In this document: piece after piece, positions 22,344 through 52,339 of the stretch
Layout: each line of letters begins with the position of its first letter
Position numbering within the stretch: position 1 is the stretch's first letter
DNA from: Thraustochytrium sp. TN22
Lineage: Eukaryota > Sar > Bigyra > Thraustochytrida > Thraustochytriidae
DNA length: 64,000 nt
NCBI GenBank assembly: GCA_013306675.1
Contig: JABLUY010000122.1
Coordinates: 44,419 to 108,418 of the forward strand
Reading direction: 5' to 3'
Program-made: the position numbers and the translations under genes
The notes under the pieces: model-generated
The model's input: the letters and a program-made list of their open reading frames with translations, nothing else
Databases searched by the model: none
What the model was told of the DNA's origin: nothing

Positions 22344-25109
22344 TCAGTTGTTCTTCTTGGCGCGGTCGCGTCTGGTGTCATCGCCGCAGGAGAGGTAGGG
22401 GTTCTTGCTGTAGGTGGCCTTGACGTCGTGAATCCAGAGCCTGCGGTGGCGGCCGATTGCGGGACGCTTCTTGTCGATCATGCCCATGGAGGTGTGGCGC
22501 GGGTTGAGGATGACGCAGTCCGCGCAGTGCCAGTAGCCGGCATCGATGTGCTCGCCAAAGGACCAGGAGTGATTGCTCTGGCGGCCGGAGCGGACGGAGC
22601 TAATGGCAGCCCAGCGGTAGAGGCGCGCCGCGGAGCGTGCGCGACAGGTGACAGGGTACACGTCGAATCGGGGAGCGATCCAGTCGTAGAAGGCGTTGAG
22701 AGCCGCGAGGTAAATGTCGACGGGAAAGTAGAAGAAGAGGCAGAAGGAGACGAGCCAGGCCACGACGTACGGCGGCACGGCGTCGCGGGCAAACCTGTTG
22801 AGTTGTTTGATGATGACCACGAAGAAGAGCAAGATCGCGACGGGCAGGTCGAAGGCGATCGTGAGCAGGCCGCCAATGAGCGCGAGGAGCTGTTCGAGGA
22901 TGGCATACGGAAGATAGCGCAGAACCCGGTAGTTGCGGTAGACGACAACTTCGGCGGCGATTTTGCCACTGACGGGAGACGCGAGCCAATAGCAGAGAAA
23001 GCTGGACGGCGAGCCTGGCGCGCCAAGGTCAAGCCAGTGGGCGTTGGGCATGTAGGGCGTGTCGCGCGCGCCGCTTCTGTCGTAGTCCGGGTCCTTTCCA
23101 ACGTAGTACATTTGGCTCTCCGGATTGACGCGCTTCTCCCCTGGGGTGTTCATGAGCGCCTGCAGGCTAAAGTGGTTGAGCGGGCTGGCCACATAGCAAG
23201 ACTCCCGCACAGGCTGCAGGTCCATGAGGCGCTTGCGAAAGTAGCCGTGACGCTCCACCCAGATGCGCGGCCTCTGCTGAGGCCGTCTCGGGAAGGCAGA
23301 GTTGTTGAAGGACGTGTAGATGCCAGAGGAGGCGCTGTACATGAGCAGGATGATGTTGAGGAGGGCCGTGGCGGTGAGGACGCGGTCCTGCTGATTGAAG
23401 GAGCAGCAAAACTCACCCTGCGGGTACCAGAGGCCGTAGAAGCCGTTGTCCGAGGGCCGGCTCGTGTCAGTGGCGCAGTCGATGTATCTGCCGCCCACCG
23501 TGTGATTCTGGATGATGCAGCGTGCCACGCTGTCGCCGTTGCTGTCCGTGACATTTTCGGTGAAGAGGGTGGAGACCTCAGCCAGGGCGGCGATGAGGGA
23601 GATGAAGACGGACTTGGTGGACAGGTCGCGCTTGTTGCGGTAGTACATGCGCAGGCTGAGCGACTCGTTGCCGTAGAAGCGCGCGATGGCGCCCATGAAG
23701 AACGCCTGGACCGGCATCCACTCCTCGCTCGCGATGCCGGCCACCACGATACCGGCGACGATGCTAATCACCGGGCGGTTCAGCATGGTCGAGTACGACA
23801 GCGCGGTCGCCCCTACGATGACCAAGATGGCAATCACCGCGTCGGACCACTTGTCCTTGTGGCGCTCGTGCAGCCAGGTGTCCCACTCCTCCTTGTCGGC
23901 CCGCGGCAAATCGCGCACCAGGGCGTGCGTGATGTAGCGGTCCTTGCTGGTGTTGTCCTTCCAATTCACGTAAAAGTACACCTTTTGGTATACACTCGCC
24001 AGCTCCGCCATGCGCATCGCCTCGTTCGGGTACGCCTTGCGCGTCTCGCCGCGCAAAACCTGGTCCATCTCCCACACCAGCGAGAAGCGCGGCAAGAAGT
24101 CGCACGGGTCCGGCCGCCGGGACTGATTCGGGTTCGACAGGAACGCCTCGTCGATCTGCAGGTCCATGAAGTAGATGGGCACGTCCGCACCCGCCTCGTC
24201 CTTGGCGAAAATGTAGAGTGAGAACGCCTTGTCCGGCACCATGTTGATGAGCCGCGACCCGAGCAGCAGCCGCCAGAGCCACAGCTTCCTCCATGCCTTC
24301 GAGTCGGGTTCCTCCACGCTGTTGCGCGGACTCGACGAGCGATCCATGCCCTTCTCCGACTCCACATCGTACACCGAGACACGCTGCTCCTCGTCGTCAC
24401 GCGTCGCACACGAGGAGCAGGCCGAGCAAGTCAAGCACGACAGGCAGCTCGCGCAGCATCCCTCTTTCTTCTTGGCCTCCGCCTCCATATCCATATCCAG
24501 CTGGTCGCGCAGGTCGTCCATCGAGATGGGCTGGCCCAGAACGGCTTCGAAGCCCGCGTTCATCACTGTCACGCGGTACCGGAGCCCGTCGTCGTCGATT
24601 ATTTCGCGCCGCAGCATGTAGCGCCGCGCGTCGTCGTCGCGTGCCGGGTCGTGGTTCTTGTTGGACTCCGCAATCACCTTGCCGAGATCCTGGATGAACC
24701 GCGTGTGCCGCCACGGCCGCCGCCACGGCCTTTCCCAGCGGACCTTGCCGATCTCCTTCTCGATCTCCGCCATGTCGGGCTCCCCCCCGGGAAAGAGCTC
24801 CGGCTTTGTCTCCCTCAGCTCCTCGATCTTGCGCGCGTGCACGATCACGTCCGAGTGGCCCTCCTCCAGGAACTCATCCACCATTTCCTCCACGTCCTCC
24901 GGCGAGATGGCCGTGTAGTCGCGAATCTCGCCGCGCAGGGCAACGCCGGCCCGGTACTCCTCCTGGCTCTTCTCGCCGTCAATCAGCCTGTCCAGCAGGT
25001 GCTTGCGCAGTCGCCCGTAGTTCACGTCGCCATTCTCCGCGTCCTCATCCGTGTTCCTGCGCGCCGTGTTCTGGATGACATGGTACTTGGACGACGGCCC
25101 GTCCGACAT
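22344..25109 (-). CDS. Array paralog 1: multi-pass membrane protein of unrecognised family
   Basis: A 921-residue protein starting MSDGPSSKYHVIQN, the start shared with its neighbours; the frame is open 36 codons further but that is repeat translation. I recognise no known family. Layout: a soluble N-terminal region with PWRRPWRHTRFI (about 150) and YRVTVMNAGFEAVLGQ; an eight-Cys cluster (CCASCLSCLTCSACSSC, about 215-232); a conserved block SLYIFAKDEAGADVPIYFMD; then a hydrophobic pair (about 420-465); a loop with Cys residues and an NHT sequon; further hydrophobic segments; and the C-terminal signature FGEHIDAGYWHCADC, RHRRLWIHD, NPYLSCGDD. It ends KKNN, a dilysine ER-retrieval signal if the tail is cytosolic. 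It is the only member on the minus strand, head-to-head with paralog 2. The gene is certain, the function unknown. Confidence 0.9.
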   Translation of the reverse strand: MSDGPSSKYHVIQNTARRNTDEDAENGDVNYGRLRKHLLDRLIDGEKSQEEYRAGVALRGEIRDYTAISPEDVEEMVDEFLEEGHSDVIVHARKIEELRETKPELFPGGEPDMAEIEKEIGKVRWERPWRRPWRHTRFIQDLGKVIAESNKNHDPARDDDARRYMLRREIIDDDGLRYRVTVMNAGFEAVLGQPISMDDLRDQLDMDMEAEAKKKEGCCASCLSCLTCSACSSCATRDDEEQRVSVYDVESEKGMDRSSSPRNSVEEPDSKAWRKLWLWRLLLGSRLINMVPDKAFSLYIFAKDEAGADVPIYFMDLQIDEAFLSNPNQSRRPDPCDFLPRFSLVWEMDQVLRGETRKAYPNEAMRMAELASVYQKVYFYVNWKDNTSKDRYITHALVRDLPRADKEEWDTWLHERHKDKWSDAVIAILVIVGATALSYSTMLNRPVISIVAGIVVAGIASEEWMPVQAFFMGAIARFYGNESLSLRMYYRNKRDLSTKSVFISLIAALAEVSTLFTENVTDSNGDSVARCIIQNHTVGGRYIDCATDTSRPSDNGFYGLWYPQGEFCCSFNQQDRVLTATALLNIILLMYSASSGIYTSFNNSAFPRRPQQRPRIWVERHGYFRKRLMDLQPVRESCYVASPLNHFSLQALMNTPGEKRVNPESQMYYVGKDPDYDRSGARDTPYMPNAHWLDLGAPGSPSSFLCYWLASPVSGKIAAEVVVYRNYRVLRYLPYAILEQLLALIGGLLTIAFDLPVAILLFFVVIIKQLNRFARDAVPPYVVAWLVSFCLFFYFPVDIYLAALNAFYDWIAPRFDVYPVTCRARSAARLYRWAAISSVRSGRQSNHSWSFGEHIDAGYWHCADCVILNPRHTSMGMIDKKRPAIGRHRRLWIHDVKATYSKNPYLSCGDDTRRDRAKKNN

Positions 25110-26717: not shown

Positions 26718-29432
26718 ATGTCGGCCGGACCTTCGTCCAAGTACTACGTGATCCAGAACAGGAGCCCGGAAAATGGAGGGGCCCGGGACGAGAAGATGGC
26801 GAACTTCGGGCGGCTGCGCGAGCCGTTGCTGCAGAAGCTGCTGGATGTAGAGATGACGCCGGAGGAGTCCATGAGGAACGCGAACTCGGACATGAGGGGC
26901 AAGAGGCGCGACTTCACGGCGTTCAAGCCAAAGCACGTGCACGCGATGGTGGAGGAGTTCCTGAACGAAGGCCACCGGGACATGGAATTCGAGAACAGGC
27001 GGGAAGAGAGCCTCGCCAGGTACCACCACGGAGAGCCCTTCAAGAGCCGATGGAAGACGCCTTGGCAGCGGCCGTGGCGGCACACGCGCTTCATCCGGGA
27101 CCTGGCCAAGGTGATTGCCGATACGAACGAAGCGAGGAAGGTGGAGAAGGATGAGGACGCCCGGCGGTACATGCTGCGGCGCGAGGCGGTCGACGAGGAC
27201 GGCCTCCGGTACCGGGTGACGGTGCTCAATGCCGGTTTTGAGGCTGTCCTTGGGCAACCCAACCCAGACGAGACGGACTCGCAGGCGTTGTCGCCCGATT
27301 GGGTGGAGAGCAGAGACGGCGAGGGCGGCTGCACAAGCTGTCTGTGGAGCTGCAGCGGCGGGGGGGACGCGAGCGAGCTCAAAGATAGCCGCATTGACAT
27401 GAGCCGCGTTCAAGACGACGATAAGATGGACATGGAGGCCAAGTCGAACCGTGGCAGTGACGGCGACGAAGAGGAGGAATCGGACCAGAAGTGGGACAAG
27501 CTGTGGCTGTGGCGGCTCCTGCTGGAGTCGAACCTGATCAACATGGTGCCGGATAAGTCGTTCTCGCTCTACCTCTTCGCCAAGGACGAGGCAGGTGCCG
27601 ACGTGCCCATCTACTTCATGGACCTGCAAATCGACGAAGGCTACATCACGTCGGACAGCAAGAGGAAGCGGGACCCATGCAACCTGCTGCCGCGGTTCTC
27701 GCTGGTCTGGGAGATGGACCAGGTCCTGCGCAACGAGACGCGCGACGCGTACCCGAAAGAGGCGCTGCGCATGGCGGAGCTCGCCAGCGTGTACCAAAAG
27801 GTCTACTTTTATGTGAACTGGAAGGACAAGTTCAGCGACAAGCGCGAGATCACGCACGCGCTGGTGCGGGACCTGCCGCGCTCTCGCAAGGAGAACTGGG
27901 ACGAGTGGCTGCACGAGCGCCACAAGGACAGCTCCGGCGACGCCATCATTGCCATTTTGGTCATCATCGGCGCCGCCATTCTGTCGTTTTCGACGATGCT
28001 GGACCGCCCCGTCATCAGCATCGTGGCTGGTATCGTCGTGGCCGGCATCGCCTCCGAGGAGTGGCTCCCACCTCAAGCCTTTCTGCTTGGTGCGATCGCG
28101 CGATTCTACGGCAACGAGTCCCTCAGCCTGCGCATGTACTACCGGGCCGATCTGGAGCTCTCCACCAAGTCCGTGATCATTTCCGTCATCTCCTCGGCAG
28201 CCGAGGTCTCCACCCTCTTCACTCAGCAGGTCGAGGATGCCAACGGCAACCAGGTGTCGCGCTGCATCATCGCCAACCAGACCATCGACGGCACGCCCAT
28301 CGACTGCGCCAACGACACCGAGGGCTCCGGCGCCGGTTTCCTCGGCCTATTCTACCCGACCGGCAACAAGTGCTGCGCTTTCAACCAGCAGGATCTGGTG
28401 CTCTCCATCGCCGCCTGCATCAACATCGTGCTGCTCATGCACACCGCCTTCTCCGGCATCTACACGAGCTTCAGCAACTCCGACTTCCCGCGGCGGCCCT
28501 CGCAGATCCCGCGCATCTGGATTGAGCGTCACGGCTACTTTCGCAAGCGGATCATGGACTTGCAGCCGGTGCGCGAGTCCTGCTACGTCGCCAGCCCGCT
28601 CAACCACTTCAGCCTACAGGCAGAAATGAATTCCGACGTCGAAAGGGCGCGGAACCCCGACCGGCAAATGTACTACGTGGGCAAGCCCCTAAAGCACGAC
28701 ACGGTCAAGCAGCGCGGAATGCCGGGGGCCCACTGGGTCGACTTGGCGGCGCCCGGTGCCCCGTCCAGCCTTTTCTGCTACTGGCTCGCATCCCCCGTTT
28801 GCGCCAAGATTGCCGTGGACACGATGGTATACGGCAACTACTGGAGTTTGCTCTTGCTACCGCTAGCCATCTTCGAGCAGGCCCTCGCGCTCCTGGGTGG
28901 TCTGCTCACCATCGCCTTCGACGTGCCCGTGGCTCTCGCGCTTCTCTGCGTTGCCATTCTCAACCAGGTCAACTCGCTCGCCCGCGACCTGCTGCCTCAG
29001 GAGATGGTGACCGACCTCGTCGCTCTTTGCCTCCGGCTCTACGCGCCCGTCGACCTCTACCTGATGCTCGTCAACCGCTACTACGACCTGGTCTCCATGC
29101 TGTGCTTCGTCCGCTTGAGTCCCGTCACGTGCCGGGCGCGTTCCGCAGCTCGCCTGTACCGCTGGGCGGCCATCAGCGCCGTGCGCTCCGGCCGCGCCAG
29201 CAACCATTCTTGGTCCTTTGGTGAGCACATTGACTCCGGCTTTTGGCACTGCGCTGACTGCGTCATCGTCAACCCGCGCATGCTCTCCATGGGCATGATC
29301 GATCAGAAGCGCCCGGCCATCAAGCGCCACCGCAGGCTGTGGATCCACGATGTGGACGCCGTCACATACAAAAACCCCTACCTTTCCTGCGGAGACAACA
29401 CCACGCGCCACAAGCGGTCCAAGGAAGATTGA
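26718..29432 (+). CDS. Array paralog 2: multi-pass membrane protein of unrecognised family
   Basis: A 904-residue protein starting MSAGPSSKYYVIQN. PWQRPWRHTRFI is at about 114, the block SLYLFAKDEAGADVPIYFMD at about 278-297, and LVWEMDQVL near 328. Hydrophobic segments lie near 410-428, 431-449, 481-501, 560-586, 681-709, 711-751 and 763-796. The loop between the third and fourth has RCIIANQT, a Cys, then CCAFNQQD, so it is probably lumenal or extracellular. The Cys spacer is reduced (CTSCLWSC). The C-terminal block has FGEHIDSGFWHCADC and NPYLSCGDN, and the protein ends KRSKED. It is closest to paralog 6 in the membrane half, by eye (for example VSTLFTQQV and DTEGSG are shared). No intron is seen. 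Confidence 0.9.
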   Translation: MSAGPSSKYYVIQNRSPENGGARDEKMANFGRLREPLLQKLLDVEMTPEESMRNANSDMRGKRRDFTAFKPKHVHAMVEEFLNEGHRDMEFENRREESLARYHHGEPFKSRWKTPWQRPWRHTRFIRDLAKVIADTNEARKVEKDEDARRYMLRREAVDEDGLRYRVTVLNAGFEAVLGQPNPDETDSQALSPDWVESRDGEGGCTSCLWSCSGGGDASELKDSRIDMSRVQDDDKMDMEAKSNRGSDGDEEEESDQKWDKLWLWRLLLESNLINMVPDKSFSLYLFAKDEAGADVPIYFMDLQIDEGYITSDSKRKRDPCNLLPRFSLVWEMDQVLRNETRDAYPKEALRMAELASVYQKVYFYVNWKDKFSDKREITHALVRDLPRSRKENWDEWLHERHKDSSGDAIIAILVIIGAAILSFSTMLDRPVISIVAGIVVAGIASEEWLPPQAFLLGAIARFYGNESLSLRMYYRADLELSTKSVIISVISSAAEVSTLFTQQVEDANGNQVSRCIIANQTIDGTPIDCANDTEGSGAGFLGLFYPTGNKCCAFNQQDLVLSIAACINIVLLMHTAFSGIYTSFSNSDFPRRPSQIPRIWIERHGYFRKRIMDLQPVRESCYVASPLNHFSLQAEMNSDVERARNPDRQMYYVGKPLKHDTVKQRGMPGAHWVDLAAPGAPSSLFCYWLASPVCAKIAVDTMVYGNYWSLLLLPLAIFEQALALLGGLLTIAFDVPVALALLCVAILNQVNSLARDLLPQEMVTDLVALCLRLYAPVDLYLMLVNRYYDLVSMLCFVRLSPVTCRARSAARLYRWAAISAVRSGRASNHSWSFGEHIDSGFWHCADCVIVNPRMLSMGMIDQKRPAIKRHRRLWIHDVDAVTYKNPYLSCGDNTTRHKRSKED

Positions 29433-32276: not shown

Positions 32277-35200
32277 ATGTCGGAGGGCCCGTCGGCGCAG
32301 TATCATGTGATAGAGAACATCCTGCCGAAGGAGAAGGAGGACGGGGCAGAGGACGGCAAGGCCGGCAATGACGGCAGGGACAAGAACGGCAAGGGCAAGA
32401 ACGGCAAGGACGGCAAGGACCAGAACGGCAAGGGCGGCAAGGACGGCAAGGACAAGCCCGGGGTAAAGTTCGACGAGAACGACATCTACTCAAACTATGG
32501 GCATCTGGATTACGACCTGCTAGACAACCTGCTCAATCTGCATGCGAAAATCGAGGAACATTCGGACGAGGCAGGCTGGGAGTATCTTCCGGACCTGAAG
32601 CAGTTTTCAGGAATGACTCCAGACGAAACATACAAACGCAATTTCTTCGTCTCCCCCGTAGACGTCGAGGACAGGGTCGAAGAGTTTCTGCGTGATGGTC
32701 ATATGGACAAGGATGAGCACGACTTTCAGCTTCAGAAGCTACGAGAGGAAAGACCAGAGCTCGACCAGTCTAAACTCGAGAAGGAGATCGGGAAGGTCCG
32801 CTGGTCGAAGCCCTGGCGGCGGCCGTGGCGGCACGAGCGCTTCATCAGGGACCTCAGCAAAGTCATCAAGGAAGCGAACAAAGATCACGTGCAGGATGAT
32901 GATGAAGCACACAAGTATGCGACGCAGTACATGCTGCGCCGTGAGGTCGTCAATGATGTCGGGCTCCGGTACAAAGTCACGGTGCTCAACGCCGGCTTCG
33001 AGTCCGTCCTGGGACAGCAACGGGCCGGTGATGACGTACACGAGGGTTTCCCCCAGTCTTCGGCCGGCGATCACCATGAGGGAGACGAGGGATTCACCAC
33101 GATGAGCTGCCGGAGCGGTGGTTGCTGCTCGCACGATGGGTGGGAGGAGGGCCGAAAGGGTTCGTGCCGTGGCGACCTCGAGGCCCACCCCGGACTGCAG
33201 CGCAGTGCGAGCCAGAAGAGCCAATGCAGCACCAGAAGTTTGGGAACGTGGAAAAAGTTCTGGCTCTGGCAAAAACTCCTCGGCTCTCGCTTGATCAATA
33301 TGGTGCCAGACAAGTCCTTCTCTCTCTACATCTTCGCCAAGGACGCGGCCGGGGCGGACGTGCCCATCTACTTTATGGACCTGCAAATCGACGAGGCCTT
33401 TCTCCACGATGAGGAGGAGAAACCACGTCGTGGTGAGAAGAAGAGAAAACCACGTCGTGATGCATGCGACTTCCTGCCGCGCCACACGCTGGTCTGGGAG
33501 ATGGACCAGGTCCTGCGCCGCGGTGAGAAGCGCAAAGCCTACCCAGACGAGGCGCTGCGCATGGCGGAGCTCGCCAGCGTGTACCAGAAGGTATACTTCT
33601 TCGTAAACTGGGACGCAGGTGAAGACGACTCCAATTCCGACTCCGACTCCAAAGAAGGCGAGATCACCTGCGGGGATGGCAAGCCCCCCCTCCGCGAGAT
33701 CACCCGCGCCATCGTTCGGGACCTGCCGCGCTCTAGAAAGGGCGCCTGGGACGAATGGCTGCACGAGCGCCACAAGGACAGCTGGGCAGATGCTGTCCTT
33801 GGCATTGTTGTTATCGTCAGTGCCACTCTCCTTTCATACTCGACCATGCTGGACCAGCCCGTCATCAGCATTGTGGCCGGCATCGTTGTGGCCGGCATCG
33901 CCTCCGAGGAGTGGATCCCGCCGCAGGCCATCATTCTTTGCGCTATTGCGCGCTTCTACGGCAACGAGTCGCTCAGCCTGCGAATGGCTTTCCGCGCCGA
34001 CCTCGAGCTGTCCACCAAGTCCGTGCTCATCTCCGTCATCGCCTCAGCGGCCGAGGTGTCCAACTTGTTCACTGAGCAGGTCAGCGACAACAACGGCGGT
34101 CTGGTGCCGCGCTGCGTGGTGGCCAACCAGACTCTCGGTGGCACGCCCGTCAACTGCATGAACGACGCCGACAGCTCCGGCAGTGGCTATCAAGGCCTCT
34201 TCTACCCGTCTGGCGACCTGTGCTGCGCCTTTAACCAGCAGGACGTCGTGCTCTCTGTGGCTGCCTGCATCAACATCACGATGCTCGTGCTCACCGCCTT
34301 TACCGGCATCTACACGAGCTTCAGCACCTCTGATTTCCCGGACCGGCCCATGCAGATCCCGCGCATTTGGGTCGAGCGCCACGGCTTTTTCCGCAAGCGT
34401 ATTATGGACTTGCAGCCTGTGCGTGAGCCCTGCTACGTTGCCAGCCCGCTTGGGCACTTTGGCTTGCAGGAGTTCATGAAGGATAAGGATGAGAAGACGC
34501 GCAACCCGGGGAATCAGATGTACTACATCGGCAAGAAGTGCAACTACGACGAGGTTGGCATGGGCGACCAGGCCAACCGCATGCCCCACTCTCACTGGGT
34601 CGACCTAGCTGCGCCGGGCTCGCCCTCAAGCCTCTTCTGCTTCTGCCTCGCGTCCCCGATCAGCGCGAAAATCGCTGTGGACGTGATGGTTTACGGCAAC
34701 CCCAGGACGCTGGTATGGCTGCCGCTCGCCATCTTCGAGCAGGTCTTGGCGCTCCTGGGCGGCCTGCTTACGCTCGTCTTTGACGTTCCTGTGGCTTTCG
34801 CTCTCTTCCTCGTGGCCGTCCTCAACAAGCTGAGCTCCTTCGGCCGCGATATCATTCCACAGAAGCTCGTGACCTTGCTGGTCTCCAGCAGTCTGCAGCT
34901 CTATGCTCCGGTCGACCTGTACCTGTGGCTGCTCACTCGCTATCACAACCTTACGGCCAAGCTCGTTGACGTGTACCCCATCACATGTCGGGCCCGCTCC
35001 GCGGCGCGCCTGTACCGCTGGGCTGCTATCAGCGCCGTGCGCTCAGGCCGGCACAGCAACCACGCCTGGTGCTTTGGAGAGCACATTGACAATGGCTACT
35101 GGCATTGTGCCGACTGCGTCATTCTTAACCCACGTCACAACTCCATGGGCATGATTGATAAGAAGCGCCCGGCCATTCGTCGCCACCGAAGGCTGTGGAA

Positions 35201-35330
35201 CAACGAGATCCACGCCAAGAACTACAAGAACCCCTACCTTTCCTGTGGCGACGACACCGTTCGCGATCCCAGAGGCAGAGACGTTGTTGAAGACAGTTCG
35301 GCCTCGTCATCATGGTGCGCCCTATCATAA
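32277..35330 (+). CDS. Array paralog 3: multi-pass membrane protein of unrecognised family, CaaX-type end
   Basis: A 1,017-residue protein, the longest of the array, starting MSEGPSAQYHVIEN (the frame opens 36 codons earlier in the upstream repeat). Residues about 24-61 are a Gly/Lys/Asn/Asp tract (units such as GKDGKD). PWRRPWRHERFI, a shorter Cys spacer (MSCRSGGCCSHD) and SLYIFAKDAAGADVPIYFMD follow. Two charged inserts set it apart: a Lys/Arg/Glu stretch after AFLHDEEE and an Asp/Ser stretch with DSNSDSDSKEG. The first hydrophobic pair is at about 506-550. The NQT loop and C-terminal signature FGEHIDNGYWHCADC are intact. It ends WCALS: CALS fits a farnesylation CaaX box. Its second half is nearly identical to paralog 4. 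Confidence 0.9.
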   Translation: MSEGPSAQYHVIENILPKEKEDGAEDGKAGNDGRDKNGKGKNGKDGKDQNGKGGKDGKDKPGVKFDENDIYSNYGHLDYDLLDNLLNLHAKIEEHSDEAGWEYLPDLKQFSGMTPDETYKRNFFVSPVDVEDRVEEFLRDGHMDKDEHDFQLQKLREERPELDQSKLEKEIGKVRWSKPWRRPWRHERFIRDLSKVIKEANKDHVQDDDEAHKYATQYMLRREVVNDVGLRYKVTVLNAGFESVLGQQRAGDDVHEGFPQSSAGDHHEGDEGFTTMSCRSGGCCSHDGWEEGRKGSCRGDLEAHPGLQRSASQKSQCSTRSLGTWKKFWLWQKLLGSRLINMVPDKSFSLYIFAKDAAGADVPIYFMDLQIDEAFLHDEEEKPRRGEKKRKPRRDACDFLPRHTLVWEMDQVLRRGEKRKAYPDEALRMAELASVYQKVYFFVNWDAGEDDSNSDSDSKEGEITCGDGKPPLREITRAIVRDLPRSRKGAWDEWLHERHKDSWADAVLGIVVIVSATLLSYSTMLDQPVISIVAGIVVAGIASEEWIPPQAIILCAIARFYGNESLSLRMAFRADLELSTKSVLISVIASAAEVSNLFTEQVSDNNGGLVPRCVVANQTLGGTPVNCMNDADSSGSGYQGLFYPSGDLCCAFNQQDVVLSVAACINITMLVLTAFTGIYTSFSTSDFPDRPMQIPRIWVERHGFFRKRIMDLQPVREPCYVASPLGHFGLQEFMKDKDEKTRNPGNQMYYIGKKCNYDEVGMGDQANRMPHSHWVDLAAPGSPSSLFCFCLASPISAKIAVDVMVYGNPRTLVWLPLAIFEQVLALLGGLLTLVFDVPVAFALFLVAVLNKLSSFGRDIIPQKLVTLLVSSSLQLYAPVDLYLWLLTRYHNLTAKLVDVYPITCRARSAARLYRWAAISAVRSGRHSNHAWCFGEHIDNGYWHCADCVILNPRHNSMGMIDKKRPAIRRHRRLWNNEIHAKNYKNPYLSCGDDTVRDPRGRDVVEDSSASSSWCALS
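32347..32458 (+). repeat. In-frame Gly-Lys/Asp minisatellite in paralog 3
   Basis: Imperfect 9-base-type units (ggcaagggc, ggcaaggac, aacggcaag) encode a Gly/Lys/Asp/Asn tract. The same tract is longer in paralog 4. Confidence 0.8.
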
Positions 35331-40132: not shown

Positions 40133-42210
40133 AAATGAATCTCCGCCTTTCGTTCATGTAGCACCTACATCCTGGCGGGCTCAAGTGTGATGCAGACGCA
40201 GTCTAGTTACGTGCCGCTGGAAGGCACCTGCTCTGTGAGGACGAGAGTAGGCTGTTTGTCACGTCAAGAGGACGGCCGAGAACCAGTCCTTGCCCGACTT
40301 TCAGTTCTAAAGACGAGACAACTCAACGTCGAAGTGCTGCTCTTTGTCACACGTTGGACTTCGCCGCCACGCGCCGCGTGCCGCCGCGCGCCGCCGCGCG
40401 AACGAGCACAAGTTCGCAAGCACGCGCAAGCCCGTCACCAGCTTTCATTGTGCACTGCGGATCACATGTCCGAATTGTCGCGCTGGCGAGTTGCGCCGTC
40501 GGCGTGGCCACGAGCAGGCAAACGCTAAGCTCAACATGTGAGTGCTTGCCCTTGTCCGACGTCGCCTCCCAGCAGACCCGAGCTTCGCTCTCGACGCTTT
40601 GCGCTTGCACTCACATGGGCTGACGATGCGGCGGCGCTGGCGCGCGCTGGCGAGAAACTTTTGCGAAAGCACCTGGCGGGTGGCTGGCTGCACGTGGAGC
40701 AGCAGCCCAACAGCGGCCCTTGTCCATAAGCAACGGGTTCAAGTGCGGACGATGCCTGCGCTGATCTGCCTTTACGGACCTTGAAGGCTGTCGTCAATGG
40801 ATCAGGCGTGTCCTGCGGTGACTCGGACCCGCGCCGCGCTGCGCCTGAGCCAAAGGCGCACGACCGTGCCGCGTTGCTGCCGCCCAAGGCGCAGCCAGTG
40901 CCCACTGCCACAAAGCGCACCGCCTGTCGGCCCTGTCCGGGCCATGTTTTACTCTTAGTGCCAGCGACGCCGTGCCAGCGCGGCGCTGCAGCGCGTGCGG
41001 CGGCATGTCACGGTAGCAGCCGCAGCCCAGTCTTGTGAACTGCCGACCCGAGTCTACGCGGCACGCGGAGCTCGCCGGCGGAGCAGCCTCTGATTCTGGG
41101 AGACGACTTGGACGTTCTCGCTCCCGCTCTCGCCTCGCGGGAGCCTCTCCCACTAGCGGCAGGGAGTCTCCCTCCAATCGCCTCGCTCTCAACCATTCGA
41201 TCCCTCTCGGAGTCGGAGTCGCCCTCTCGCTCTCACTCTTGCTCCCGCTCTCGTTCTTGCTCTCCGTCCCAGCGTCGTCAATGGATCAGGCGTGTCCTGC
41301 GGTGACTCGGACCCGCGCCGCGCTGCGCCTGAGCCAAAGGCGCACGACCGTGCCGCGTTGCTGCCGCCCAAGGCGCAGCCAGTGCCCACTTCCACAAAGC
41401 GCACCGCCTGTCGGCCCTGTCCGGGCCATGTTTTACTGTTAGTGCCAGCGACGCCGTGCCAGCGCGGCGCTGCAGCGCGTGCGGCGGCATGTCACGGTAG
41501 CAGCCGCAGCCCAGTCTTGTGAACTGCCGACCCGAGTCTACGCGGCACGCGGAGCTCGCCGGCGGAGCAGCCTCAGATTCTGGGAGACGACTTGGACGTT
41601 CTCGCTCTCGCTCTCGCCTCGCGGGAGCCTCTCCCACTAGCGGCAGCCTCCAATCGCCTCGCTCTCAACCATTCGATCCCTCTCGGAGTCGAAGTCGCCC
41701 TCTCGCTCTCACTCTTGCTCCCGCTCTCGTTCTTGCTCTCCGTCCCAGCGGCCCTCGCCGGCCTCCGCGCAGTTGGAGCCGCAGCCGGCGGCGCTGACCA
41801 CGAGGAGGCGCCGAGACAACGCGCGGTGCAGCAGGCTGGGACGCGCAGAAGCCGCGGCCGGGCCCACCTGGGCTCGCAGCCCGGCTTGGAGAGCGCCTTG
41901 GAGCAAATTGGAGGCTCGGCGACCTCCAGGCTTTCGATCGGACGCCTGCACAGGCTGCACTGCCTCACATACATCAGGCCAGGCTGGCTGGTGGCCAAGG
42001 CAGTGTGCGGCGGCGCGGTGGCCACAGCCACAGGCTTGCTTGCAGTGCTGCAGTCGCTGCGGGAGGTTGCTGCGGCCGCCAAGGCTGTCAAAAAGGGGGG
42101 GACACCTTTTACAGGCAGCGTCCAATCGTGGACACCTTTTTCGAGTAAGCGGCCGCAGGGCCGGCTGACGCCGCGGCCGGCAAAGCCGAATCGCAAAGGA
42201 CGTCACCACG
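40133..42210. other. Intergenic region with duplicated flank and a 0.48-kb tandem duplication
   Basis: About 40189-40607 repeats the 3' flank of paralog 3. A direct tandem duplication follows (40791-41751). The last 450 bp before paralog 5 is unique, with ggacaccttt twice at about 42099 and 42129. Open frames inside the duplication do not resemble genes. Confidence 0.55.
40791..41751. repeat. Direct tandem duplication of about 0.48 kb
   Basis: Copy 1 (40791-41274) and copy 2 (41275-41751) both begin tcgtcaatggatcaggcgtg and run in parallel to ctctccgtcccagcg. Differences are a few single bases and a small deletion in copy 2, where copy 1 has cagggagtctccctcc. The near identity implies a recent event. 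Confidence 0.93.
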
Positions 42211-44682
42211 ATGGCCTCCCCACCCTTCGTCATCAACGTGGCTCATGACGGCAAGGACAAGACGGACCGGAACTATGGACGATTGAAGGACACCTTGCTA
42301 AAGACGTTGGTCGAGAATCCGGACGAGCTGGTGCACACGTCCAAGCCGGAGGAGCTGAAACAGATGGTCGAAGATCTTCTCCGCAGCGACTGCACGGGTG
42401 CTGAGCACAGCACGCCGAGGCGCCCTTGGCGGCACAAAAGATTCATCAAAGATTTGGCCAAGGCGGCCCTCAAGGTGAAGCGACCGGGGCACTACATGGA
42501 GCAGCGCACGGCCTCCGAAGGGGATTGCACGTACAAGATCACGGTCCTGAATGCCGGCTTTGATGGCATCCTAGGGCGCCCAAGCACGCAGCTAGCCTAC
42601 GGCCTGTCGAGGAGTGGAGATCAACATGGCACCGAACCCGCGGGGACCGATACGTCGCCAGACGACAGATTGGAGGAGGGCAATGCTGGCCTCTCCAACG
42701 ACGCCGCCGGGCAAAGGTGGCAAGACTTCTCGTTCTTGCAGCAGCTCTTCACAACCAGTTTGGTCCACCTGGTGCCAGACGAGTCCTTCTCGCTGTACGT
42801 GTTCGCCAAGGGCAATGGCGGAGCTGACGTTCCGGTTCTTTACTTGGACTTTCGCGTCAAGGACGAAGGACATCCCAATCTGGACCCTTCCTTGCCACGA
42901 TACTTGCTGGTCTGGGAGATGGACCAGGTGAACCACGACGCTGACCACAAAGGATTCCCAAACGAGGCGCTCCACATGGCTGAGTTCGCCAGCGCATACC
43001 AAAAGGTTCACCTCTACGTGAACTGGGAAGACTCCAGCCAGGACCGCCACATCACACACGCCATGGTGCGGGACCTTCCGTGCTCCAGAAAGGGCGACTG
43101 GGACGCCTGGCTGGCGGAGCGCAACCAGGACAGCCCTGGCGACGCGTTCTTCGCCATCGGCATCATCGTCATCGCGACGTTCCTATCGTACTCCACCGCA
43201 TTGAACGAACCCGTCATCAGCATCCTTGCTGGCGGCCTGGTTGCTGGCATCGCCTCCGAGGAGTGGCTCACGCCGCAAGCCTTCTTCATGGGTGCCATTG
43301 CGCGCTTCTATGGCAATGAGTCGCTCAGCCTGCGCCTGTACTACCGTGCCGACTTTCAGCTGTCCACCAAATCGGTGCTCATCGCTGCCATCGCCTCGGC
43401 GGCCGAGGTCTCCGGTCTCTTCACCACCCTGGTCAGCGATGGCCACGGCGGCACCGTGCCTCGCTGCATCGTGGCGAACCAGACCATCTTCGGCACGCCC
43501 GTTGACTGCGCCAACGACCCCCACGTCCCAAGCAACGTCTATGAGAGCCTCTTCTACCCTACGGGTGAGCTCTGCTGCATCTTCAACCAGCAGGACTTGG
43601 TCGTTACCGTGGCTGCCTGCATCAACATCACGCTGCTCCTGCACACCCTCTTCTCCGGCGTCATCACGTCGCTCAACACCGCAGACTTCCCGTGCCGCCC
43701 CAAGCAGGCTCCGCGTATCTGGGCTGAGCCCCATGGCTACCTTCGCGACCGCCTCTTGGACTTGCAGCCCGTGCGCGAGCCCTGCTACATGTCTGCCCCG
43801 CTTCAACACTTCAGTCTGGATGAGTCTGTGCGGAAGCTGACGGAAATGGAGAGAACGCCGGTGATGGGGGAAAACCGAAAGCTCCCAATATTCTTTGCCG
43901 GCGAGCCTCCCGAGGACGGAAAGGTCGCCACTTGCGATGGGACCTATCACGAAGACGTCGCTGCAAGTCATGAGGAGTCTCGCGCCGAAGACCATTGGGT
44001 CGACCTAGCAGGGCCGGGCTCCCCTCCCAGCCTCTTTTGCTATTGGCTCGCCTCCCCTGTCTCCGCAAAGATTGCCACGGACTATCTCATCTATCGCAGG
44101 CGCATCTCCCTCTGTCTGCTCCCGTTTGCAGTCGTGGAGCAGGTCCTGGCGCTCGTTGGCGGTCTACTCACGCTCGTCTGTGACGTCCCCGTCTCGCTTG
44201 GCTTTCTTTTCGTCGCAGCTCTGCACCACACCGCCAACTGGCTCTCGCGCGATTTGCTGCCGGACCGCCTCATCCCAATGCTCATCAAGGTCTGCTTCTG
44301 GTTCTACACGCCGGCTGACATCTACCTGTATCTGCTCAGCTCCTGCCACGATGTGATTGCCATTCGTGTTGGCGTCCAACCCATCACCTGCCGGGCTCGC
44401 TCCTCGGCGCGCCTCTACCGCTGGGCAGCCATCACCAGTGTGCGCTCCGGCCGCCAGAGCAACCACGCTTGGAGCTTCGGCGAGCACATTGAAGACCAGT
44501 ACTGGAATTGCGCTGACTGCATCATTGCCAACCCGCGCGTGGCCTCCATGGGCATGGTCGACTCCAAATACCACGCCATCGGCCGCCACCGCAGGCTGTG
44601 GATCTACAACGAGGAGGCCAAGTGCTACGCCAATCCTTTTCTTTCTTGCGGCGACAACACAACGCAAGTCTTCGCACCTTGA
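42211..44682 (+). CDS. Array paralog 5: multi-pass membrane protein of unrecognised family, short N-terminus
   Basis: An 823-residue protein, the shortest, starting MASPPFVINVAHDGK; FVIN corresponds to the YHVI of the others. The N-terminal region is about 100-190 residues shorter than in the other forms except paralog 7, has PRRPWRHKRFIKDL, and lacks the Cys spacer. SLYVFAKGNGGADVPVLYLD, LVWEMDQV and the hydrophobic pair (about 310-355) are present. The loop has RCIVANQT and CCIFNQQD. It carries its own insert between LDESVRKL and HWVDLAGPG (about 40 residues, acidic). The C-terminal signature is FGEHIEDQYWNCADC, where His of HCADC is replaced by Asn, and the protein ends FLSCGDNTTQVFAP with no sorting motif. 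It is one of the two most divergent members. Confidence 0.9.
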   Translation: MASPPFVINVAHDGKDKTDRNYGRLKDTLLKTLVENPDELVHTSKPEELKQMVEDLLRSDCTGAEHSTPRRPWRHKRFIKDLAKAALKVKRPGHYMEQRTASEGDCTYKITVLNAGFDGILGRPSTQLAYGLSRSGDQHGTEPAGTDTSPDDRLEEGNAGLSNDAAGQRWQDFSFLQQLFTTSLVHLVPDESFSLYVFAKGNGGADVPVLYLDFRVKDEGHPNLDPSLPRYLLVWEMDQVNHDADHKGFPNEALHMAEFASAYQKVHLYVNWEDSSQDRHITHAMVRDLPCSRKGDWDAWLAERNQDSPGDAFFAIGIIVIATFLSYSTALNEPVISILAGGLVAGIASEEWLTPQAFFMGAIARFYGNESLSLRLYYRADFQLSTKSVLIAAIASAAEVSGLFTTLVSDGHGGTVPRCIVANQTIFGTPVDCANDPHVPSNVYESLFYPTGELCCIFNQQDLVVTVAACINITLLLHTLFSGVITSLNTADFPCRPKQAPRIWAEPHGYLRDRLLDLQPVREPCYMSAPLQHFSLDESVRKLTEMERTPVMGENRKLPIFFAGEPPEDGKVATCDGTYHEDVAASHEESRAEDHWVDLAGPGSPPSLFCYWLASPVSAKIATDYLIYRRRISLCLLPFAVVEQVLALVGGLLTLVCDVPVSLGFLFVAALHHTANWLSRDLLPDRLIPMLIKVCFWFYTPADIYLYLLSSCHDVIAIRVGVQPITCRARSSARLYRWAAITSVRSGRQSNHAWSFGEHIEDQYWNCADCIIANPRVASMGMVDSKYHAIGRHRRLWIYNEEAKCYANPFLSCGDNTTQVFAP

Positions 44683-46019: not shown

Positions 46020-48857
46020 ATGTCGGAGGGCCCGTCGTCGAAATACCATGTGATCAAGACCTACCATGGCGAGGTCCCAGGCAAAGAGGCCGAGAACTAC
46101 GGGAATCTCAAGCCGCATCTCATTGAGCAGCTCTTCAATGCGGGCGAACGTGGGGAAGAGGAGCAAGGGGAGATGCGCAATTATATGGCGTACAAGCCGG
46201 AGGATGTGGAGGAGATGGTCGAGGAGTTCCTGCACGAGGGGCACATGGACGAGGCATACACGTACCTGCGGAAGGACCTCGAGAGGACGCGGCCGGAGCT
46301 TTTCGCGGACGGACGGCCCGACGAGGCGGAGATTGAGGCGGAGATCGGCAAGAACCGGTGGAAAGAGCCGTGGCAGCGTCCGTGGCGGCACACGCGCTTT
46401 ATCCGGGATGTGGCCAAAGTCATCGCAGAGACGAACACGGACGTTAGCGAAGGCACGGACGCCACTCGCTACATGCTGCGGCGCGAGGCCAGAGATCCAG
46501 ATACAGGCATCAAGTACAGGGTCACGGTCCTCAATGCCGGCTTCGAGGCCGTCCTTGGGCAGCCGAACCGGGGCAAGGAGGAAGATGACGACGATGGCCG
46601 CGGAGGAGTTGACAAAGTTTTCTGCCAGTCGTGCTTGGGCGGCTCCAGGTGCTCATGCGAGACGGTGATCAACACCTTTAAAGAGATGATGGGTGGGTGG
46701 TCGCCGCGCGAGCAGGCCGAATTTGACGAGTTTCGCCGCGCGCGTGAGAGAGAGGGCAGCGACTGCGAAGACGATTCGCAGGAGAGCGTTCAAAAGTGGG
46801 AGAATCTCTGGCTCTGGCGCAAGCTGCTCCGGTCTGACCTGGTCAACATGGTGCCGGACCGGGCGTTCTCGCTCTATATTTTTGCAAAGGACGAGGCTGG
46901 CGCGGACGTGCCCATCTACTTTTTGGACCTCCTGATCGACGATGGCCACCTCGTGAATACAGAGGAGTCATGGGCGGACCCGTGCCACCTCCTGCCGCGC
47001 TTCTCGCTGGTCTGGGAGATGGACCAGGTCCTGCGCAACGAGACTCGCAAGGCGTACCCCGACGAGGCGCTGCGCATGGCGGAGCTCTGCAGCGTGTATC
47101 AAAAGGTCTACTTTTACGTCAACTGGCGGGACAAGAGCAGCGACGAGCGCTACATCACGCACACGATCATCCGGGACCTGCCGCGCTCTGGCAAGGGCGC
47201 CTGGGACGAGTGGTTGCATGAGCGCCACAAGGACAGCTGGGGCGACGCCGTTCTCGGCATCTTCGTGATCGTCGGCGCCGCCATCTTGTCGTACTCCACC
47301 ATGCTGGATCAGCCTGTCATCAACATTGTGGCCGGTATTGTGGTGGCTGGCATCGCTTCGGAGGAGTGGATCCCGCCCCAGGCCATCCTCCTGAGCGCCA
47401 TTGCACGCTTCTACGGCAACGAGTCCCTCAGCCTGCGCATGTCCTTTCGCGCCGATCTGGAGCTCTCCACCAAGTCCGTGATCATCTCCGTCATCGCCTC
47501 GGCCGCCGAGGTCTCCACCCTCTTCACCCAGCAGGTCCAAGATGCCAATGGTGACCAGGTGTCGCGCTGCATCGTCGTGAACCAGACCGTCGGCGGCACG
47601 CCCGTCGACTGCGCCAACGACACCGAGGGCTCCGGCGGCGGCTTTCTCGGCCTCTTCTACCCGACCGGCGAGAGGTGCTGCGCTTTCAACCAGCAGGACC
47701 TGGTGCTCTCCATCGCAGCCTGCATCAACATCGTGCTGCTCATGCACACCGCCTTCTCCGGCATCTACACGAGCTTCAGCAACTCCGACTTCCCGCGGCG
47801 GCCCAGGCAGACTCCGCGCATCTGGGTCGAGCGGCACGGCTTCTTTCGCAGGCGCCTCATGGACTTGCAGCCGGTGCGCGAGTCGTGCTACGTGGCAAGC
47901 CCGCTCGGCCACTTCGGTCTGCAGGAGGCCATGAATGATCCCAAGGAGAAGGAGATCAACCCGGAACGTCAGATGTTCTTCGTTGGCAAGCCGCTCGACT
48001 ACCACAAGATCGGTGCGGAGGACCCTCACCAGACCAAGGCCCACTATATTGACCTCGCGGCGCCAGGGTCGCCCTCCAGCATATTCTGCTACTGGCTTGC
48101 GTCCCCGGTCAGTGCCAGGATCGCCGTGGACGTCATGGTGTACGGCAACTACTGGACGCTGCGGCTGCTGCCGCTCGCACTCGTGGAGCAGCTCCTCGCG
48201 CTCTTGGGCGGCCTCCTCACACTCGCCTTTGACCTCCCCGTGGCCCTCGCGCTCTTCTGCGTCGCTGCACTCAACAAGATCAACGTGGTCCACCGCAAAG
48301 CCGTGCCACAGTGGCTTGTGACCCGGCTGGTCTCCTGGAGCCTCGACCTCTACGCTCCGGTCGACCTCTACCTCGCGCTGCTCAACCTTTACTACGACCG
48401 GGTCGCACGGGTCGCTGGCGTCGACCCTGTCACGTGCCGATCGCGGTCCACCGCGCGCCTCTACCGCTGGGCGGCCATTAGCGCTGTGCGCACTGGCCGA
48501 CAGAGCAACCACGCCTGGTGCTTTGGCGAGCACATCGACTCGGGCTACTGGCACTGTGCCGACTGCGTTATTCTCAACCCGCGTCACAACTCCATGGGCA
48601 TGGTCGACTCGAAGCGCCCGGCCATCAAGCGCCACCGCAGGCTGTGGATCCACGATGTCGGCGCCAGGCTCTTCAGAAACCCCTACCTCTCCTGCGGCGA
48701 CAACACGAAGCGCCACTCCGCGCCTCCATCTCCGCCGAGCGGCACTGGACGTCGCGGTAGCAGCACTGCGAGTGGCACGTCTGCTCTGCGCCGATCTCTG
48801 GGCCTGAGCGATAGCTCGGCGTCCTCGAGTGGCGATCACACTCATGACGCCAAGTAG
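46020..48857 (+). CDS. Array paralog 6: multi-pass membrane protein of unrecognised family, Ser-rich tail
   Basis: A 945-residue protein starting MSEGPSSKYHVIKT (17 upstream codons are open but not used). PWQRPWRHTRFI, the Cys spacer VFCQSCLGGSRCSC and an acidic Arg/Glu stretch precede SLYIFAKDEAGADVPIYFLD. The hydrophobic pair (about 410-455), NQT loop, CCAFNQQD and the later membrane segments follow the family plan. The C-terminal signature FGEHIDSGYWHCADC and NPYLSCGDN is intact, then a unique extension of about 45 residues rich in Ser, Pro, Gly and Thr (for example SDSSASSSGDH), a possible phosphorylated tail. By eye it is most like paralog 2 in the membrane half. No intron. Confidence 0.9.
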   Translation: MSEGPSSKYHVIKTYHGEVPGKEAENYGNLKPHLIEQLFNAGERGEEEQGEMRNYMAYKPEDVEEMVEEFLHEGHMDEAYTYLRKDLERTRPELFADGRPDEAEIEAEIGKNRWKEPWQRPWRHTRFIRDVAKVIAETNTDVSEGTDATRYMLRREARDPDTGIKYRVTVLNAGFEAVLGQPNRGKEEDDDDGRGGVDKVFCQSCLGGSRCSCETVINTFKEMMGGWSPREQAEFDEFRRAREREGSDCEDDSQESVQKWENLWLWRKLLRSDLVNMVPDRAFSLYIFAKDEAGADVPIYFLDLLIDDGHLVNTEESWADPCHLLPRFSLVWEMDQVLRNETRKAYPDEALRMAELCSVYQKVYFYVNWRDKSSDERYITHTIIRDLPRSGKGAWDEWLHERHKDSWGDAVLGIFVIVGAAILSYSTMLDQPVINIVAGIVVAGIASEEWIPPQAILLSAIARFYGNESLSLRMSFRADLELSTKSVIISVIASAAEVSTLFTQQVQDANGDQVSRCIVVNQTVGGTPVDCANDTEGSGGGFLGLFYPTGERCCAFNQQDLVLSIAACINIVLLMHTAFSGIYTSFSNSDFPRRPRQTPRIWVERHGFFRRRLMDLQPVRESCYVASPLGHFGLQEAMNDPKEKEINPERQMFFVGKPLDYHKIGAEDPHQTKAHYIDLAAPGSPSSIFCYWLASPVSARIAVDVMVYGNYWTLRLLPLALVEQLLALLGGLLTLAFDLPVALALFCVAALNKINVVHRKAVPQWLVTRLVSWSLDLYAPVDLYLALLNLYYDRVARVAGVDPVTCRSRSTARLYRWAAISAVRTGRQSNHAWCFGEHIDSGYWHCADCVILNPRHNSMGMVDSKRPAIKRHRRLWIHDVGARLFRNPYLSCGDNTKRHSAPPSPPSGTGRRGSSTASGTSALRRSLGLSDSSASSSGDHTHDAK

Positions 48858-49849: not shown

Positions 49850-52339
49850 ATGCTGTCGCCGTCGCCGTACTTCGTGATCAACAACGAGCTGGAGGACAAC
49901 GAGGCGGAGGACGAGCCGGCGCGCAGCACCGGGCGGCTGGATGACGACCTGCTGCAGCAGCTGCTGAACAATGAGAATGGACCGCAGGAGGGCGTGGTGC
50001 GCGGGGCCGAGGCGGTGCAGAGGGAGGTGGACGACCTGCTGGGAAAGGACTGGCGGCGGCCATGGCGGCACCGGCGGTTCATCCTGGAGCTGGCGGACGC
50101 CATCAAGGACGAGAAGAGCCAGACGGAGCGCACCAAGAAGGGCATCTACATGCTGCACCGCGAGGCGACCAATGCCAAGGGCGACACGTACATGGTGACG
50201 GTGATGAACGCGGGCTTCGAGGGCGTGCTGGGCCGCGACGGCGTCATCTGGAGCCTGGACGACACGCGCGAGCACTTCGGGCTCGGTCCGGAGCAGGGCA
50301 ACAACGGCGTGCTGCGGCACTTGCGGTACGGCGACAAGCGCACCGCGCCGCACAGCCGCTTCCGCACGGTGCGCCGCGAGTCCGCCGGCCACTGGGACAG
50401 CCTCTGGCTCTGGCGCGTGCTGCTCAAGACCAACCTCATCAACGTGCTGCCGGACACCTCCTTCTCGCTGTACCTCTTCGCCAAGGACCAGGCCGGCGAC
50501 GACGTGCCCATCTACTTCATGGAGCTGGACATCCTTCCAGCCAACCTAGACGACCCGCGCCAGCGCGTGCCACGGCACTCGCTGGTCTGGGAGATGGACC
50601 AGGTGCTGCGCACCGAGCACCGCGTCGCGCACCCGGGCGAAGCGCTGCACATGGCCGAGATGGCCAGCGCGTACCAAAAGATCTACTTTTACGTCAACTG
50701 GGAGGACGTCGACAGCTCCGAGCGTTACGTCACGCATGCGCTCGTGCGCGACCTGCCGCGCTCCAACAAGGACACCTGGGACGACTGGCTCATGGAGCGC
50801 AACAAGGACGACTGGAGCGACGCCGTCGTCGCCATCATCGTCACCGCCTTCGCCACCATCCTCTCGTACTCGACCATGCTGGATCAGCCCGTCATTAGCA
50901 TCGTGGCCGGCGTCGTCGTGGCCGGCATCGCCTCCGAGGAGTGGCTCCCGCCCCAGGCCTTTTTGCTCGGCGCCGTTGCGCGGTTTTTCGGCAACGAGTC
51001 CCTCAGCTTGCGCATGTACTACCGCGCCGACCTCACGCTCTCGACCAAATCCGTGCTCATCTCCGTCGTCGCCTCGGCAGCTGAGGTCTCGGACCTCTTC
51101 ACGCGCCACACCTACGACGCAGCCGGCGAGATCGTTACCGGCTGCCTCGTGGCCAACCAGACCCTGGCCGGTACGCCCGTCGACTGCACTGTCGAGAAGC
51201 CCTCCAACGCCTACCTCGGACTCTTCCAGCCCACGGGCGACGCATGCTGCGCCTTCAACGACAAGGACCTCGTGCTCTCCATCGCCGCCTGCATCAACAT
51301 CGTCCTGCTCATGCACACCGCCTTTTCGGGCATCTACACGGCCTTTAGCACCTCCGAGTTCCCGCGCCGCGCCACGCAGTTCCCGCGCATCTTCGTCGAG
51401 CGCCACGGCTTCTTCCGCTTACTCATCAAGGACCTCCAGCCCGTGCGTGAGACCTGCTACGTCTACAGCCCGCTCAATCACTTCAGCCTGCAGGAGCAGC
51501 TCAAGGAGGAGAATGGAAACCAGATGTTCTATGTCGGCAAGCCCGTCGACAAGGCCACGCGCAAGAGAGATTTCTATCGCACCGCACACTACCTCGATCT
51601 GGGCGCGCCCGGCGCGCCCAGCAGCTACCTCTGCTATTGTTTGGCCTCCCCGGCCTCTGCCAAGATCGCTGTCGAGCTCCTTGTGTACCGCAACGTCTTC
51701 GCCCTCATCTGGCTCCCGCTCGCTCTCGTCGAGCAGTTCCTCGCGCTCTGGGGTGGCGTCCTCACCATCTTCTTCGACGTCCCGGTCGCCTTCGCGCTCT
51801 TTTGCGTGCTCTCGCTCAAGCAGCTCAACCGCATAGACCGCGACACTGTCTCGCCCACGGTCGTGCGCTGGCTCGTCGCCCTCAGCCTGCGCCTCTACAT
51901 GCCGGTCGACCTCTACCTCTTCCTCGTGGAGACCTTTCACACCTTCGTCGCCGCCATCGTTGGCCTCCAGCCCATCACCTGCCGGGTGCGCTCCTCCGCG
52001 CGCCTCTACCGCTGGGCCAACATCAAGGCCGTGCGCACCGGTCGCGCCAGCAACCACTCCTGGTCCTTTGGCGAGCACCTCGACTCCGACTTTTGGCACT
52101 GCTCCGACTGCGTCCTCGTCAACCCGCGCATGCTCAAGCTCGGCATGGTCGACAAGATGCGCCCCGCCATCGGCCGCCATCGCCGCCTCTGGATCCACAG
52201 TCCCAAGGTCAAGTACTACCAGAACCCCTACCTCTCCTGCGGCGACAACACCTCGCGCCTCCCGCGCGGCGTGACTCCGGAGGACGCCGCCGACCCCTCC
52301 AACCACGGTCTTGACCACCCGATCAATGACGATGTGTGA
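49850..52339 (+). CDS. Array paralog 7: multi-pass membrane protein of unrecognised family, short N-terminus
   Basis: An 829-residue protein starting MLSPSPYFVINNELEDNE, where YFVINN matches YHVIQN. Like paralog 5 it has a short N-terminal region and no Cys spacer; WRRPWRHRRFILEL, YMVTVMNAGFEGVLG, SLYLFAKDQAGDDVPIYFME and LVWEMDQVLR are present. The hydrophobic pair lies at about 320-365. The loop keeps CLVANQT and CCAF, but FNQQD is FNDKD. The later membrane segments and C-terminal signature FGEHLDSDFWHCSDC, NPYLSCGDN are conserved with small changes. The tail ends NHGLDHPINDDV. It is the last gene of the array; single-copy genes resume 365 bp downstream. Confidence 0.9.
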   Translation: MLSPSPYFVINNELEDNEAEDEPARSTGRLDDDLLQQLLNNENGPQEGVVRGAEAVQREVDDLLGKDWRRPWRHRRFILELADAIKDEKSQTERTKKGIYMLHREATNAKGDTYMVTVMNAGFEGVLGRDGVIWSLDDTREHFGLGPEQGNNGVLRHLRYGDKRTAPHSRFRTVRRESAGHWDSLWLWRVLLKTNLINVLPDTSFSLYLFAKDQAGDDVPIYFMELDILPANLDDPRQRVPRHSLVWEMDQVLRTEHRVAHPGEALHMAEMASAYQKIYFYVNWEDVDSSERYVTHALVRDLPRSNKDTWDDWLMERNKDDWSDAVVAIIVTAFATILSYSTMLDQPVISIVAGVVVAGIASEEWLPPQAFLLGAVARFFGNESLSLRMYYRADLTLSTKSVLISVVASAAEVSDLFTRHTYDAAGEIVTGCLVANQTLAGTPVDCTVEKPSNAYLGLFQPTGDACCAFNDKDLVLSIAACINIVLLMHTAFSGIYTAFSTSEFPRRATQFPRIFVERHGFFRLLIKDLQPVRETCYVYSPLNHFSLQEQLKEENGNQMFYVGKPVDKATRKRDFYRTAHYLDLGAPGAPSSYLCYCLASPASAKIAVELLVYRNVFALIWLPLALVEQFLALWGGVLTIFFDVPVAFALFCVLSLKQLNRIDRDTVSPTVVRWLVALSLRLYMPVDLYLFLVETFHTFVAAIVGLQPITCRVRSSARLYRWANIKAVRTGRASNHSWSFGEHLDSDFWHCSDCVLVNPRMLKLGMVDKMRPAIGRHRRLWIHSPKVKYYQNPYLSCGDNTSRLPRGVTPEDAADPSNHGLDHPINDDV

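Follow-up and report, generated by a model that had tools for sequence, protein, structure and literature searches.

A seven-gene tandem array encoding predicted multi-pass membrane proteins of a probably lineage-restricted family in Thraustochytrium sp. TN22

The window, a 64,000-nucleotide stretch of Thraustochytrium sp. TN22 DNA (C25:44419-108418, in a genome of 37.9 Mb and 453 contigs), has a G+C content of 60 to 70% in 2-kb steps. The genome size falls within the 30 to 60 Mb described as typical of thraustochytrids (PMC12258536). Between positions 22344 and 52339 of the window, seven single-frame, uninterrupted open reading frames (ORFs) were detected, with gene 1 on the minus strand and genes 2 to 7 on the plus strand, so that genes 1 and 2 lie head to head. 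Gene 1 (22344 to 25109, minus strand; 921 amino acids [aa]) was identified as an ORF with an ATG start and as a member of the family. The plus-strand genes are gene 2 (26718 to 29432; 904 aa), gene 3 (32277 to 35330; 1017 aa; in-frame ORF from 32169), gene 4 (37139 to 40132; 997 aa), gene 5 (42211 to 44682; 823 aa), gene 6 (46020 to 48857; 945 aa; in-frame ORF from 45969) and gene 7 (49850 to 52339; 829 aa; in-frame ORF from 49718), all lengths being counted from ATGs placed in the analysis. No intron was needed in any of the seven. An earlier note on this DNA had described seven intronless paralogs of one family that fill 30 kb. The genes were found as described and do span this interval, but "fill" was loose wording, as coding sequence accounts for 19,329 of the 29,996 bases (64%) and the intergenic gaps range from 992 to 2,844 bases. 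The gap between genes 4 and 5 contains two 300-base direct repeats (40790 to 41089 and 41274 to 41573), which are 99% identical, lie 484 bases apart and reflect the recent duplication of a small piece of intergenic DNA.

Protein identity to gene 2 was 53 to 69% across the other six genes, with gene 5 being the most distant (53%). Five of the seven proteins (genes 1, 2, 3, 4 and 6) begin with MS.GPS, while gene 5 begins with MASPPF and gene 7 with MLSPSP. The shared motif blocks reported previously were present in all seven proteins with small variants, namely, LVWEMDQI in gene 4, TPRRPWRH and DWRRPWRH in place of PW.RPWRH in genes 5 and 7, respectively, and NPFLSCGD in gene 5; the spacing from FGEH to W was five residues as opposed to the four given in the earlier note. 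Ratios of dN/dS were between 0.30 and 0.65 in all 21 pairs of array genes. The levels of identity, the dN/dS ratios, the uninterrupted frames and the existence of homologues elsewhere indicated that the array ORFs are real genes under constraint and not chance ORFs.

The surroundings of the array were examined with Pfam. Ordinary neighbours were found at 5374 to 7629, 17166 to 21978 and 52704 to 62731, and these included a trypsin-like protease, argininosuccinate synthase, an epoxide hydrolase, a WRKY19-type zinc finger, an RCC1-BTB protein, a ketopantoate reductase and a Myb factor. A 1,335-aa ORF running off the window (3 to 4007, minus strand) matched DUF6729 just over the cut-off (29 versus 27 bits; E value of 9.6e-7), and an ORF at 8112 to 9161 (plus strand) had a weak, below-cut-off match to a Frizzled (Fz) domain (E value of 1.1e-5). 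A HIT-domain protein (E value of 8e-28) is encoded on the minus strand at 11064 to 13142. Within the same interval, a membrane-like ORF starts on the plus strand at about 11832 and has no Pfam match at an E value of ≤10; it carries an EDPF motif, which we take to be reminiscent of bestrophin-like proteins. The 1,104-aa ORF at 13450 to 16764 (plus strand) contains many Cys-rich repeats (CPAGTYG and similar) and gave no Pfam match over the cut-off (best E value of 0.094).

Synonymous divergence was used to examine the history of the array. A dS of 0.11 was detected between genes 3 and 4, and values of 0.64 to 1.02 were obtained for the remaining 20 of the 21 pairs; genes 3 and 4 are the only recent duplicates and the other pairs are old. 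The duplication of genes 3 and 4 took in both flanks, with approximately 1.3 kb upstream at 78% identity and approximately 0.5 kb downstream at 82% identity. The only other flank matches were 117 bases upstream of genes 6 and 7 (75%) and 23 bases downstream of genes 1 and 7. Between genes 2 and 6, the synonymous difference fell to 0.14 to 0.29 in four windows located within the conserved core versus 0.34 to 0.71 in all other windows, and this dip hints at possible gene conversion. Selection for dosage, which had been suggested for the array, was rejected as the main driver because the dS values leave it unsupported for most copies.

Relatives were sought in the TN22 genome and in protein databases. 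Genome searches with gene 2 and with two homologues (P0005 and P0007) all returned the same loci, of which there are at least 11: the seven array genes and one each on contigs C171, C407, C147 and C251. Three protein-database searches returned 8, 9 and 3 proteins, giving 12 distinct homologues once overlaps were removed; scoring was confined to the approximately 8,000 candidates with the most words in common, so that relatives may have been missed. Of the 9 proteins in the second search, 4 were new and one was the query itself, while the 3 in the third, a profile search with gene 2, were all already known. Four of the 12 homologues are named, these being three hypothetical proteins of Hondaea fermentalgiana and a transcript protein of Thraustochytrium sp. 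LLF1b, and the other eight are unnamed. Pattern scans detected 3 matches in a viral contig collection and 105 in a prokaryotic genome contig collection, with no confirmed relatives in either; the degenerate motif pattern had one match in the TN22 genome itself, on contig C88, and none in the array. On the eukaryotic side, the homologue search covered one protein database and the TN22 genome.

A tree of 23 proteins, midpoint rooted for drawing only, placed the seven array genes, the C171 and C407 genes and Hondaea P0001 in a ten-member clade with 100/100 support. The pairing of the C171 gene with P0001 was weaker (89/85), and several forks inside this clade were below the starred support level. 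The C147 gene grouped with P0002 of Hondaea and also with P0003, and the C251 gene with P0011 of Hondaea and also with P0012. As C147, C251 and the array clade each group with a Hondaea protein, three subfamilies are probably older than the split from Hondaea, with the array having expanded on the TN22 side. The array clade includes nine genes of this genome versus one Hondaea gene among the proteins returned by the database searches, and the array therefore looks like a lineage-specific expansion. The family as a whole is likely restricted to thraustochytrids or labyrinthulomycetes, judging from the sequences recovered. This restriction is less than proven because eight homologues are unnamed and two of these (P0007 and P0008) are placed on a very long branch (3.87).

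None of the seven array proteins had a Pfam match over the cut-off, and the best E value for the 19 alignment members was 0.004, again with none over the cut-off. The same search applied as a yardstick to neighbouring ORFs placed 7 of 10 over the cut-off and one more below it. No match over the cut-off was obtained with NCBIfam for three tested proteins, and there was no significant match to PDB sequences. Three fold searches with the AlphaFold2 models each gave no match at an E value of ≤0.001. The view that the proteins contain no known domain thus holds at the sensitivity of these Pfam, NCBIfam, PDB sequence and fold searches. With regard to a new fold, the fold searches yielded nothing significant, but the models were of medium quality and full-length only, and novelty falls short of established. 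Furthermore, a description of the family was not found in the open-access literature, including under three FCC1311 tags. Overall, the view of the array as an unrecognised multi-pass family expanded in tandem was upheld, with no curated profile over the cut-off and with all four named homologues being from thraustochytrids. It is very probable that this is a lineage-restricted orphan membrane family.

The prediction that these are multi-pass membrane proteins was backed by family-averaged hydropathy and two AlphaFold2 models. Residues are numbered here by the 830-residue modelled row of gene 7, which starts one residue before the ATG. In the model, residues 1 to 182 form a short strand and helices together with a pair of strands; the linker at 125 to 182 is of low identity. 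A predicted cytosolic domain of five beta strands follows (residues 183 to 322; 50393 to 50812, plus strand), as assigned from model secondary structure, and contains the SLY.FAK and LVWEMDQV blocks. Hydropathy, the model and identity define the next region (residues 323 to 500; 50813 to 51346, plus strand), in which predicted TM1 (323 to 341) and TM2 (349 to 362, followed by EEW) precede short helices at 369 to 380 and 384 to 393 that carry invariant A, R, NE and R residues. Predicted TM3 (398 to 418) and TM4 (465 to 497) enclose a putative luminal loop (approximately 421 to 474) with four Cys residues and an NQT sequon. Beyond TM4, a cytosolic loop extends to about residue 600. The model then places a helix at 602 to 613 and a helix pair at 617 to 658 and 670 to 705 (TM5 and TM6), with E629 and D644, in residues 601 to 706 (51647 to 51964, plus strand). 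A basic C-terminal block (residues 707 to 802; 51965 to 52252, plus strand) contains CR.RS.ARLYRW, VR.GR.SNH.W, W.C.DC and NPYLSCGD and was mostly of low model confidence. Identity within the array was high in the core (0.67 in the beta domain, 0.76 in TM1-2, 0.79 in the following loop plus TM3, and 0.75 in the C-terminal block) and lower in the variable parts (0.41 in the N-tail, 0.28 in the linker, 0.45 in TM6 and 0.27 in the C-tail).

The loop between TM3 and TM4 is 53 to 61 residues long in array-clade members, and all 10 have four Cys residues and an NxT sequon (NQT; NHT in gene 1). Its mean net charge was -3.6 versus +1.3 for the TM2-3 loop, +2.0 for the TM4-5 loop and +9.1 for the C-terminus. 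The negative charge, sequon and Cys residues suggested that this loop is probably luminal, Cys-rich and glycosylated. In the other 13 proteins, the loop had 7 to 63 residues and 0 to 6 Cys residues; as it is short or Cys-poor in several of these, it is not essential to the core. Among the seven array members, no strongly hydrophobic 12-residue stretch was present within the first 70 residues (highest value of 0.88), and the same check on homologue P0004 detected a hydrophobic N-terminal stretch (2.49). Family hydropathy peaked at only 1.35 for TM3 and 1.44 for TM6 versus 1.72 to 2.44 for the other helices, the segment just before TM1 was negative (mean of -1.8), and the TM5-TM6 turn was positive (+2.1). 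For these reasons, it is uncertain whether there are four, five or six membrane helices and on which side each loop lies.

Conservation extends over most of the length of the family, with shared motif blocks and, in an alignment of 19 sequences, 50 invariant columns; the N-terminal part is missing from P0007 and P0008. All 23 proteins keep D at the start of TM1, EE at the end of TM2, E413 in TM3 and E629 and D644 in TM5, and the TM4 Asn is kept in 21 of 23. The earlier note had listed a receptor, channel or surface protein as possible and held that nothing in the sequence decides between them. That is still fair, but the invariant carboxylates and the absence of a large ectodomain tilt the choice towards a channel or transporter, which is favoured because the carboxylates in predicted membrane helices are invariant, whereas several members can do without the luminal loop. 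In such a mechanism, both protein ends would be in the cytosol, and the protein would reside in an endomembrane or the plasma membrane. E413, E629 and D644 would serve the passage of ions or protons, with gating by the cytosolic beta domain and the conserved loops on the cytosolic side. The tandem copies, which differ mostly in their cytosolic tails and linkers, would be tuned in regulation or partners and not in the transport core. This assignment has to be set against the lack of any transporter or channel profile over the cut-off or significant fold match, against the weak points of the topology (TM3 and TM6 hydropathy and flank charges) and against the fact that the invariant carboxylates may also be catalytic or structural. 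A constrained orphan family with the predicted topology, acting as a channel or transporter, was the best explanation overall, and we hold it tentatively; the regulated mechanism taken by itself is possible and is advanced with rather more reserve.

The main rival is a membrane-bound enzyme, for example, one that modifies lipids or glycans, and this is unlikely but a serious contender. Its active site would lie at the membrane face and be formed by the invariant H545, D584 and DL..PG.P of the cytosolic loop together with the likewise invariant C712, R713, R722, R730, N736, H737, D754 and N759 of the C-terminal block. Many of the invariant columns are polar and outside the membrane segments, which would also suit an enzyme, and identity in the C-terminal block is 75% within the array and 54% across the family. 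Thraustochytrids, moreover, have an unusual lipid metabolism. Against an enzyme are the absence of Pfam or NCBIfam enzyme profiles over the cut-off, the low model confidence for most of the C-terminal block and the W.C.DC cysteines, which are not invariant and are missing from P0007 and P0009.

A role in structure or trafficking at the bothrosome or ectoplasmic net, with the cytosolic domains recruiting partners and no transport taking place, seems rather unlikely. To our knowledge, this membrane structure is unique to labyrinthulomycetes, and a family confined to the group, as the thraustochytrid origin of all the named members suggests, would match a structure confined to the group. A scaffold would not need invariant intramembrane carboxylates. 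A proteomics study has sought such proteins among lineage-divergent ones and names three unannotatable membrane candidates that are called likely highly disordered (PMC12221091). The core of the array family is not disordered, unlike those candidates as described there, and no link between the two was found in the available part of that source. Localisation to the net is attractive but unsupported. The compound proposal of a labyrinthulomycete-specific channel or transporter with a fold absent from the PDB, tied to the bothrosome or ectoplasmic net and tandem-expanded here to tune it, is improbable.

A family of surface receptors or antigens that expanded to gain diversity is highly improbable. 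Tandem expansion and the Cys-rich, sequon-bearing luminal or extracellular loop of all 10 clade members would be in keeping with it, but the exposed loop is short, at 50 to 53 residues in all seven proteins, and 57% identical within the array, the lowest identities belong to the N-tail, linker and C-tail, all predicted to be cytosolic, and the array members have no strongly hydrophobic N-terminus. In genes 3 and 4, dN/dS was 1.21 in the N-terminal part (272 codons, after removal of a low-complexity repeat) versus 0.33 in the core (659 codons). This contrast was significant (P = 1.6e-5), but pN was not significantly greater than pS in the N-terminal part (Fisher P = 0.53); positive selection there is unproven and the divergence fits relaxed constraint. 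The suggestion of selection for diversity of an exposed surface was therefore not sustained, and retention of paralogues with altered regulation fits the pattern of divergence better than dosage or variation of an exposed surface does.

For an orphan family, tandem expansion is an ordinary and familiar evolutionary pattern; this family is real and probably lineage-restricted, with no description found in the open-access literature. If restriction to labyrinthulomycetes is true, the 11 genes here and the three Hondaea proteins form a compact candidate set for membrane functions specific to this lineage, with the ectoplasmic net and lipid export as examples. Structure determination would also be worthwhile, given that the family is polytopic, keeps its intramembrane carboxylates invariant and lacks recognised relatives. 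Some thraustochytrids are transformable, so knock-out and tagging are feasible.

Among known systems, the pentameric ligand-gated ion channels are no more than a weak lead in fold, through a domain of beta strands that in the predicted anatomy likewise precedes four membrane helices. Their beta domain is extracellular, whereas that of the array family is predicted to be cytosolic, with five strands before TM1, and the array family has an extra long helix pair and a C-terminal block and lacks a profile match. The Neur_chan_LBD and Neur_chan_memb profiles were absent from the Pfam matches of the array proteins and alignment members, and the single place in the whole genome with a match to PF02931, the ligand-binding domain profile, lies outside the array (C8:114440-114628) and scored 22.8 bits versus a 26-bit cut-off. 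That the family belongs, highly diverged and below the detection limit, to a known superfamily of channels, whether pentameric ligand-gated or TRP-like, is the least probable of the readings. The closest comparisons are within thraustochytrids. Hondaea FCC1311_085632 belongs to the array clade and is 45% identical over 99% of gene 2, while FCC1311_073702 (47% identity over 71% of gene 2) and FCC1311_092732 differ in being members of two other thraustochytrid subfamilies; all three are annotated only as hypothetical proteins. The Thraustochytrium sp. LLF1b transcript protein (MMETSP0199, P0006) is 36% identical over 72% of gene 2 but falls outside the array clade and has a TM3-TM4 loop of 27 residues with one Cys, and, judging from its transcriptome label, a member of the family is transcribed in LLF1b.
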